DNA of 34,737 nt from the NCBI GenBank assembly GCA_016197225.1, contig JACPWC010000091.1, forward strand, positions 1 to 34,737, in the 5' to 3' direction. The first letter of the stretch is position 1, and every line of letters starts with the position of its first letter. The DNA comes from Chloroflexota bacterium (GTDB taxonomy: Bacteria > Chloroflexota > Anaerolineae > Anaerolineales > VGOW01). Shown one piece after another: positions 23,927 through 26,006 of this stretch. The notes under the pieces were generated by a model, which was not told the origin of the DNA, ran no database searches, and saw nothing but the letters and a program-made list of their open reading frames with translations. Both the position numbers and the translations under genes were made by a program.

Positions 23927-23959
23927 GTAGAGCGACGCGAAGCGGGCATCTCGCTCTAC
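23927..23959. repeat. GTAGAGCGA inverted repeat between convergent genes
   Basis: GTAGAGCGA (23927-23935) pairs with TCGCTCTAC (23951-23959) around a 15-base loop. The TAG stop of the BchD-like frame on the minus strand (23958-23956) is inside it. Confidence 0.75.
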
Positions 23960-24804
23960 CCCCCATCCAGTTCTTTCTTCACCGTCTTATACAACGTCTC
24001 GGCGCGCAGGTCGTGCAGGGTGAGGCAGGCGCATCCAAGATGCTCGGCCAGGCCGCGCGCCAGTCCCTGGTCGAAGGCGGCGTGCTCCATATTGATGACT
24101 ACGCTTTTGATGTTCTCGTCCTTGATCAACTCGGCGGCGCGGTAGGCTTCAGTCTGCGGCGGCAGGTCGGTCATGGAGACGTTGCCGGCGCCGTCGGTCA
24201 GCAGAATCATCAGCGGCATCACGTCAGGGTGCAGGCGCTTCTCCTGGGCCAGAATCTTGAAGGCCATCGTCAACCCGGCGGAGAGCGGAGTCTTGCCGCC
24301 CACCGGGATGTCGGCCAGCGCCTTTTGGGCCAGCATCACCGAGTTGGTCGGCGGCAGGATGAGGCGGGACTGGTTCTTCTGGAAGACGATGAGGCCGACG
24401 CGGTCGCGGCGCTGGTAGGCGTCGGTGAGCAGGGACATGATGGCCCCTTTAGTGGCGCTCATGCGCTCGGCTACGGCCATGCTCCACGAGGCGTCTACGA
24501 CAAACAGAATCAGGTTGGCGGCTTTGCGGACTCGAATCTTGCGATGGAAGTCTTCGGTCTTGACGGCGAAGGCTACGTCGTGCTCGGCGCGCTGTTCGCT
24601 TCGCTGAACCTGAAACGGGGCGGCGGCGCGGAGGGTGGCATCGAAGGCCAGGTCGTCGGTCTTGCCGTGCGTGGGCCGGGCCTGAATGTAACGGCCACGC
24701 TTGCGGTCGGTGCGCGTTCGGCTTCGCTTGCCGCCCTGGTTGCGGGTGAGTTTGTCGAGCGGGGTGTTGAGACTGCGCGGGCTGAACTCTTCGGTGGCTT
24801 TCAC
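23956..24804 (-). CDS. BchD-like von Willebrand A domain part of a chelatase, -1 frame
   Basis: The frame is open without a stop back through the A run at 24927-24919 into the BchI-like gene, and its only in-frame start codon is a GTG at 24804 with a distant GGAGG. The 282 residues after that GTG hold a VWA domain of the chelatase D type. The metal-ion site is D104-A-S106-W-S108 (the usual G is W), T172 and D204. The N-terminal ~60 residues are Lys/Arg-rich. Chelatase D subunits bind the I-type ATPase and help insert magnesium or cobalt into tetrapyrroles. I expect most product to come by -1 frameshift. No large subunit (BchH/CobN) is in the window. Confidence 0.85.
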   Translation of the reverse strand: MKATEEFSPRSLNTPLDKLTRNQGGKRSRTRTDRKRGRYIQARPTHGKTDDLAFDATLRAAAPFQVQRSEQRAEHDVAFAVKTEDFHRKIRVRKAANLILFVVDASWSMAVAERMSATKGAIMSLLTDAYQRRDRVGLIVFQKNQSRLILPPTNSVMLAQKALADIPVGGKTPLSAGLTMAFKILAQEKRLHPDVMPLMILLTDGAGNVSMTDLPPQTEAYRAAELIKDENIKSVVINMEHAAFDQGLARGLAEHLGCACLTLHDLRAETLYKTVKKELDGG

Positions 24805-24908
24805 CTTTTGGCCGCCCTCCCACCAGTAAGCGTCACGGGTATCCGACGCTTGTTGGGGAGCGGCCTCGGCCTGCCCGAAGTCGGGCGTTTCTTCAGAAGA
24901 CTCGTTCG

Positions 24909-26006
24909 CTACGCCCTGTTTTTTTTTACCTGCGACTTTTCTTCCGAGGGCGTGGGCTGGCTTTCGGCCCCGCCAAACTCAGAACGAATTTGCTCCATGC
25001 GCTCTTCGAGATCGTAGGCGGTCACTTCCGTCTTCTGGAAGGGGCCGTGCTTAATGCGGTGCGGCAGGGCCAGTTCGGCGGCCAGAATGATGTCTTCGTC
25101 GTTGATCGTCACCCGCCCGCCGAAGGCGGCATGGGCGCGGGCGGCGCGCAGAATCACCAGGTCGGCCCGGTGGCCGTCCACACCCATGGAAGTGGTGAGC
25201 GAAGCGATGGCTTCGAGATCGCGCTTGCCATACTTCACCTCTTCGACGATCTCGCGGGCCTGCTCGATCTCGTCGGCCAGTTCGTGTTCTTTTGGCTCCC
25301 ACTCTTTGTGGAAAGCGTCAGGATCGGCTTCGTAATTCAGGTTGCGTTCCATGATCGCCACCCGGTCGGTTGAGGTGGTGAGGCCGTGAATGTCCACCGA
25401 CAGGGCGAAACGGTCGAGCAGTTGCGGGCGCAGGTCGCCTTCTTCGGGGTTCATGGTTCCTACCAGGATGAAGCGGGCCGGGTGGGCGAACGAAATGCCT
25501 TCCCGCTCCACGACGTTGACCCCCATCGCCGCCGAGTCCAGCAAGACATCCACCACGTGATCGTCCAACAGATTCACTTCGTCCACGTAAAGCAGGCCGC
25601 GATTGGCAGCGGCTAGCACGCCGGCCTCAAAGTGGCGTTCGCCTTTTTGTATGGCCTTCTCGATGTCGAGCGTGCCGACCACGCGATCTTCGGTGGCGCT
25701 GACGGGCAGGTTGATGAACGAGGTGCGGCGGGTGGTGAGCGGAAGCTTGCCGTCTTTGGCGGCGCGCTCCTGGCACTCGGTGCACCAGGTGGAAGGCCGG
25801 TCGGGGTCACAGCCAAAGCGGCAGTCTTTGACCACGCGCACGTCAGGCAGAAGGGCGGCCAGGGCGTGGGCGGCGGTGGACTTGGCCGTGCCGCGTTCGC
25901 CGCGAATGAGCACCCCGCCGAGGCGCGGGTTGACCGCGTTCAAAATCAGGGCGCGCTTCATGCGTTCCTGCCCGACGATGGCCGTGAAGGGGAAAATAGG
26001 GGGCAT
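24909..26006 (-). CDS. BchI-like AAA+ chelatase ATPase subunit
   Basis: The protein is 365 residues in the zero frame. Walker A is GERGTAKS (36-43), a cysteine cluster (CRFGCDPDRPSTWCTEC) matches the BchI/ChlI and cobaltochelatase type, NLPVSATEDRVVGTLD follows, Walker B is LLYVDEVNLL and the sensor is GTMNPEEG. It ends KSQVKKNRA just after the A run, where a -1 slip would continue into the BchD-like frame. GGAG lies six bases before the ATG. The closest group is the ATPase of magnesium or cobalt chelatases, and I cannot tell which metal. Confidence 0.92.
   Translation of the reverse strand: MPPIFPFTAIVGQERMKRALILNAVNPRLGGVLIRGERGTAKSTAAHALAALLPDVRVVKDCRFGCDPDRPSTWCTECQERAAKDGKLPLTTRRTSFINLPVSATEDRVVGTLDIEKAIQKGERHFEAGVLAAANRGLLYVDEVNLLDDHVVDVLLDSAAMGVNVVEREGISFAHPARFILVGTMNPEEGDLRPQLLDRFALSVDIHGLTTSTDRVAIMERNLNYEADPDAFHKEWEPKEHELADEIEQAREIVEEVKYGKRDLEAIASLTTSMGVDGHRADLVILRAARAHAAFGGRVTINDEDIILAAELALPHRIKHGPFQKTEVTAYDLEERMEQIRSEFGGAESQPTPSEEKSQVKKNRA
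24916..24930 (-). promoter_or_regulatory. Slippery A9 run, likely programmed -1 frameshift site
   Basis: On the minus strand GGT is followed by nine A and then CAGGG. In the zero frame this reads GTA AAA AAA AAC AGG GCG TAG. A -1 slip reads AAA CAG GGC and stays open for 38 codons to the GTG at 24804 and on to 23956, giving a 683-residue fusion. GGGCGT just downstream could pair with ACGCCC about 25 bases later, a possible stimulator. Confidence 0.65.

Follow-up and report, generated by a model that had tools for sequence, protein, structure and literature searches.

The gene studied here belongs to fs-chlD, a kind of chlD-type gene known from the literature, in which two subunits are made by frameshifting (PMC3711429; PMC9227772, each cited from a part of its text). 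It lies on the minus strand of the window, by which we mean the whole analysed stretch of 34,737 nucleotides, contig C91 of a 4.8 Mb genome that is 98% complete. Ordinary reading of its mRNA would end at a TAG codon (24911-24909) and give a 365-aa AAA+ protein (I). In a fraction of the readings, the frame would shift by -1 at a run of nine A (A9), giving a 683-aa protein (I-D) with a C-terminal VWA domain. The likeliest step would be tandem -1 slippage of the ribosome on A_AAA_AAA, extra A's raising the rate, and slippage of RNA polymerase on the same A9 would probably contribute. One gene would thereby set the ratio of the small to the medium subunit of an AAA+/VWA complex. We judge this account, with the ribosome as the main agent, to be reasonably likely.

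The initial annotation had proposed that a programmed change of frame joins the I and D frames. This proposal is supported by the conserved run, the relation between the frames, the phased heptamer, the match to the TIGR02442 profile and published reporter data. The statement that chlD-type genes were already established to make two subunits by frameshifting agrees with the fs-chlD literature. In Escherichia coli, reporters of this family shift at rates of 63% for A11, 40% for A9, and 10% for A7 (PMC3711429). Herpetosiphon is among the named examples (PMC3711429), together with Brevefilum fermentans, Anaerolinea thermophila, and other Anaerolineaceae (PMC9227772). In the part of the earlier account covered here, fused chlD homologues are mentioned just as a sign of shared function (PMC3711429). 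The window's gene and fs-chlD have in common the overlap of I then D at -1, the poly-A slip site, and a short and a long product; nothing was found that sets the window's gene apart. A 2020 work by Antonov reportedly belongs to the same literature.

Reading frames and slip run of the window's gene

The features of the junction between the two frames are collected in Table 1. On the minus strand, the junction reads GTA AAA AAA AAC AGG GCG TAG, and the A9 run contains both a phased A_AAA_AAA and a phased A_AAA_AAC. The nine A's first noticed in this gene are indeed present; however, they stand seven bases before the stop of the I frame and not nine, as had been written. Analysis of the frames confirmed that the VWA frame is at -1 relative to I, translation through a -1 slip gave the announced 683 residues, and the first start codon of the D frame past the run is a GTG, as expected. 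An AAA+ I frame is followed by an overlapping VWA D frame, and the overlap holds an A_AAA_AAR heptamer, here A_AAA_AAA within A9. Runs of nine A occur at eight separate places in the whole genome. Another of these runs (contig C30, locus L241, 13714-13722) is found at the start of a gene that, named by eye, is presumably a myo-inositol-1-phosphate synthase gene.

Table 1. Features of the I-D junction and of its two reading frames in the window
Feature	Position	Strand	Description	Basis
I frame	24909..26006	-	ChlI/BchI-like AAA+ ATPase, 365 codons, ATG start at 26006, TAG stop; default (short) product	ORF list, TIGR02442 and TIGR02030 profiles, structural relatives
A9 slip run	24919..24927	-	nine T on the plus strand; zero frame GTA AAA AAA AAC	
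Stop of the short product	24909..24911	-	TAG, 7 bases (CAGGGCG) past A9	
Stretch open in both the I and D frames	24912..24978	-	67 nt	
D frame	23956..24927	-	-1 relative to I; acidic linker and VWA domain, which would be reached via the frame change; open from 24978 down to its own stop at 23956-23958	
WWEGG	24811..24825	-	in the D frame, upstream of its first start codon	
GTG	24802..24804	-	first D-frame start codon after the run, 114 nt past it; product would be D without the linker	
Proposed hairpin	24883..24916	-	GGGCGT (24911-24916) and ACGCCC (24883-24888)	unsupported as a conserved element

The joined protein aligns in one stretch with positions 1-640 of the 641 of TIGR02442 (putative cobaltochelatase). 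Its score of 779.1 bits falls 0.35 bits short of the cut-off (779.45 bits) and is a borderline miss. The I part by itself matches positions 1-346 of the same profile, and also TIGR02030. More generally, I and D match the ChlI and ChlD profiles, but under the curated cut-offs of TIGR02030 and TIGR02031. ChlI (8osf) and BchI (1g8p) are solved structural relatives of the I part. The D part is a ChlD-like VWA domain by profile match, and a DASWS sequence seen by eye in the D frame is what we take to be a MIDAS-type pattern. A W(W/F)xG(G/S) motif, hereafter the WW motif, is present in the D frame of 133/177 split and 22/33 fused loci of the sample described below.

The run in split and fused relatives

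A survey of 396 genomes gave I-part matches in 336, from which 30 loci and 120 further best-scoring stretches were taken; weak matches are therefore under-represented. In total, 237 loci were gathered. Removal of four with less than 55% identity to the I part, four without a D match, and 16 exact duplicates of the junction left 213 distinct loci, the window's own included (148 from genome searches and 65 from named loci). These comprise 177 split genes with D at -1, 33 fused genes, and three loci with D at +1 (L032, L137, and L226), which were excluded from the split and fused statistics. FastTree trees hold 210 of the 213 loci, with 67 of 207 inner branches poorly supported.

Within the genus, the gene is present in three of five genomes, the window's own among them. 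Both congeners that have it keep A9 and the -1 frame, as does the next relative (L040). At the threshold used, the remaining two genomes (63% and 76% complete) have only a 40%-identical paralogue.

Relatives that are devoid of the run and have a normal start for D had been named at the outset as a sign of an error or of a split gene. The run is present in all 177 split loci (window included), always with A_AAA_AAA phased on the I frame. Its length is A7 in 16 loci, A8 in seven, A9 in 134, A10 in 19, and A12 in one. A7 is found only in phase 2 (16/16) and A8 only in phase 1 (7/7), the phases in which so few A's can still contain the heptamer. In 160 split loci, the stretch open in both frames encloses the run entirely, and in all 177 the run is no more than 3 nt from that stretch. 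Elsewhere in the I part of these genes, leaving out the 30 nt before the run, only two runs of A7 or longer and none of A9 or longer occur in 186,447 nt; within those 30 nt, a second run of at least A7 exists in four genes. Codon-shuffled linkers carry a run of A7 or longer in 5% of cases, and the real linkers in 177/177. By these measures, the conservation of the slip run is beyond chance.

The slip site is also kept in 31 of the 33 fused genes (19 A9, three A10, and nine A7). The -1 frame of all 31 meets a stop 3-13 codons from the start of the run, while only 32% of control places in the I part of fused genes have one within 15 codons. Once grouped into 21 sequence clusters, fused genes have a -1 stop within 13 codons in 21/21 clusters vs. 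9.0 after codon shuffling, and a +1 stop within 13 codons in 16/21 vs. 4.4. The +1 stops may simply be inherited from the I stops of ancestors that were split. Since the slipped frame of fused genes stops early, a slip would yield the short protein there, with the polarity reversed. Two fused genes (L235 and L237) have no run, and in them the -1 frame stops after 16 and 39 codons; they speak against a universal rule of run retention. Together with the three loci having D at +1, these two are the loci of the sample that argue against our account.

On the FastTree tree of 210 loci, the fused or split state changes 14 times (at least 10 for the fused group, counting by the starred branches). Some single fused genes with A9 or A10 could be miscounts of A. 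The fused state is common to several species in an A7 clade of eight loci, in a clade formed by L138, L154, L156, and L167, and in the L169-L200 group, inside which two split genes are nested. Taken as a set, the relatives suggest that the slip site survives even where the halves of the gene become joined. One of the loci with D at +1, L032, has an A10 run, and on the tree it stands closest to L012, a fused gene with A9; L032 represents either a miscounted A run or a third type of layout.

Possible routes to the proposed change of frame

The ribosome need not be the main agent. RNA polymerase could add or drop A's on A9 and produce mRNA in all three frames, one class giving the long and two the short protein, as in dnaX of Thermus thermophilus. 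As the only or main route this is, in our view, unlikely, even if several observations lead to it. A9 is the commonest length (134/177 split and 19/33 fused loci) and is found in every codon phase. A ribosomal slip needs no more than a heptamer, yet most runs exceed this length, again in all three phases, which argues against a view restricted to the ribosome. In split genes with A9 or longer, the frame that is neither I nor D (the third frame) reaches a stop within 13 codons in 54/57 sequence clusters, compared with a mean of 36.3 after synonymous recoding (maximum 45 in 500 draws) and of 32.2 after 20-codon shuffling (maximum 42). In fused genes with A9 or longer, both other frames stop early, in 15 and 19 of 19 clusters (6.9 and 9.3 after recoding). 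In the window's own gene, the two other frames hit stops 2 and 7 codons in.

The dnaX gene offers a precedent. It resembles the window's gene in that one gene gives two products through an A-rich slip site, both in E. coli and in T. thermophilus. E. coli dnaX uses the ribosome, whereas Thermus dnaX uses RNA polymerase at an A9 run, with stops in both other frames (PMC1088944; PMC5009743, from the parts covered). The job of dnaX is unrelated, and its zero frame encodes the long form, whereas the zero frame of the window's gene encodes the short one. In this respect, the fused chlD relatives would be dnaX-like in polarity. Reversed polarity is reported for some dnaX genes (PMC3711429; PMC5009743). 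Since both non-D frames stop early after A9 or longer runs, as in Thermus, RNA polymerase may share the work, and its slippage may be a route to the frame change or a partner in it.

The short runs bear on the same question. The restriction of A7 and A8 to the phase required by a ribosomal slip is irrelevant to RNA polymerase. This phase rule would favour the ribosome, on the basis of only nine changes between short and long runs on the tree. With A7 or A8, third-frame stops within 13 codons are found in 6/10 split clusters (3.4 after recoding, P 0.046; 5.2 after shuffling, P 0.42), and with a 5-codon cut in 5/10 (1.6 after recoding, reached in 0/500 draws; 3.4 after shuffling, P 0.18); the clusters being related, the P values of these stop tests are too strong. 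The 5-codon result means that genes with short runs may show the same excess of early stops, and the difference between short and long runs is suggestive without being firm. Early third-frame stops are also possible traces of past flips of polarity. We keep tandem slippage of the ribosome as the most likely main route, with RNA polymerase as a probable partner.

A downstream stimulatory RNA structure is usual in fs-chlD (PMC9227772, from the part covered), and the GGGCGT/ACGCCC hairpin had been put forward as a possible stimulator in the window. The hairpin can form on paper, but its folding energy is ordinary (z of -0.42 over 83 nt), and at least one mismatch is found in each of the three closest relatives (G001, G003, and SJ338). 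The 59 nt after the window's run fold with a z of 0.65. Folding, the alignment of four sequences, and z-scores over the 213 loci gave no support to the hairpin in the window. Averaged over the 177 split genes, folding of the 60 nt past the run is slightly better than at control places (mean z -0.82 vs. -0.15 to -0.47), which makes structures conceivable in some members. A Shine-Dalgarno-like stimulator upstream of the run was also considered. Pairing of -7 or better at -22 to -5 is found in 31% of the 177 split genes (10-14% further upstream and 27% downstream) and in 52% of the 33 fused genes (15-21% and 42%). This candidate was rejected, the excess being seen downstream of the run as well, so that the signal may reflect base composition.

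I and D might instead be two ordinary adjacent genes, with D translated by reinitiation at the GTG (24804). A G-rich stretch does precede this codon. Congener G003 has an ATG in its place and further ATGs at +39 and +57 past the run, G001 has an ATG at +33, and some start codon exists between the run and the WW motif in 90 of the 133 motif-bearing split loci. However, the window's GTG sits 105 nt past the stop of I, WWEGG precedes it in the D frame, and no start precedes the WW motif in the other 43/133. Reinitiation would also leave the conserved run and the fused relatives unexplained, and we consider it very unlikely.

Phase variation, in which replication slippage would alter the length of the run and toggle the long form between cells, accords with the variation of run length and of the fused or split state (14 changes on the tree) among relatives. 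Yet run length and frame are identical in the three gene-bearing species of the genus, and the domains give no sign of a surface protein, which makes this explanation highly improbable. Finally, homopolymers are error-prone, and some differences between single fused and split relatives may be errors, but the idea of a fused gene misread with nine A's for ten has a negligible probability: both gene-bearing congeners and L040 share the same A9 and frame, and the 177 loci, 16 of them with A7 only, agree on the relation between frames, which speaks against an assembly slip.

The two inferred products and the large subunit not found in the genus

We infer that both proteins are made, in a ratio set by the frame change, and that they form a complex. 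The I and D parts resemble CobNST and ChlIDH chelatases in matching the ChlI and ChlD profiles, but these chelatases have a large subunit of the PF02514 family (CobN/ChlH). A PF02514 profile search found no match in the window's genome or in the four other genomes of the genus (0/5, three being at least 90% complete), and the same search was positive in 5/14 control genomes. Hence, "cobaltochelatase" is probably not the job of this gene, and its AAA+/VWA complex would probably not be an ordinary Mg or Co chelatase.

Among the 396 genomes of the class, PF02514 is over the cut-off in 46, and the I part is found at an E value of 1e-130 or better in 336. A comparison of the two lists by eye placed 43 of the 46 within the 336, leaving 293/336 without a PF02514 match over the cut-off, a figure in which some genomes may carry a stand-alone ChlI and not fs-chlD, and some absences may be draft gaps. 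Restricted to genomes at least 90% complete, the I part is present in 222/234 and PF02514 in 35/234.

For Anaerolineae-type bacteria, a wider scenario can be sketched tentatively, though we would sooner doubt it than rely on it. Selection would keep the slip site and not the layout. The chlD gene would have flipped many times between split and fused while holding the run. Lineages with A9 would depend on slippage of RNA polymerase and have stops in the two other frames, and lineages with A7 would depend on the ribosome. The products would serve an AAA+/VWA machine mostly devoid of CobN/ChlH.

Two elements appear to be new within the reach of our literature search, namely the site kept in fused genes with early stops in the slipped frame, and the early stops of both non-D frames after A9 or longer runs. 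The parts of the fs-chlD accounts covered here contain neither a run inside fused genes nor early stops in both other frames (PMC3711429; PMC9227772). The search found no published account of either; it covered titles and the openings of abstracts, with subscription papers mostly outside it, so such an account may be in print.

A published case of recoding is thus extended to many relatives, and the results suggest that a hidden short product may also come from genes whose annotation is simply that of a fused "cobaltochelatase". The natural series from A7 to A12 in one gene provides material on which the use of the ribosome or of RNA polymerase for making two proteins could be tested. The role of ChlI/ChlD-like complexes without a large subunit, a question raised earlier (PMC9227772, from the part covered), becomes sharper.

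Some genomes contain further ChlI-like genes. In the window's own genome, contig C14 (L245:2863-4002) carries a separate ChlI-like AAA+ gene of 379 aa, 40% identical to the I part; no VWA gene was seen by eye near it (ORFs of at least 150 aa over 7 kb). An fs-chlD gene plus a separate ChlI-like gene is the genotype called a potential intermediate in Anaerolineaceae (PMC9227772, from the part covered). In congener G001, locus L008 holds a further ChlI-like gene (51% identity), and roughly 1 kb downstream of this gene there is a weak D-like match at 34% identity. Several genomes of family f7, such as G123, G160, and G297, encode two full-length PF02514 proteins each, and these genomes may therefore possess a ChlH-like large subunit alongside a CobN-like one.
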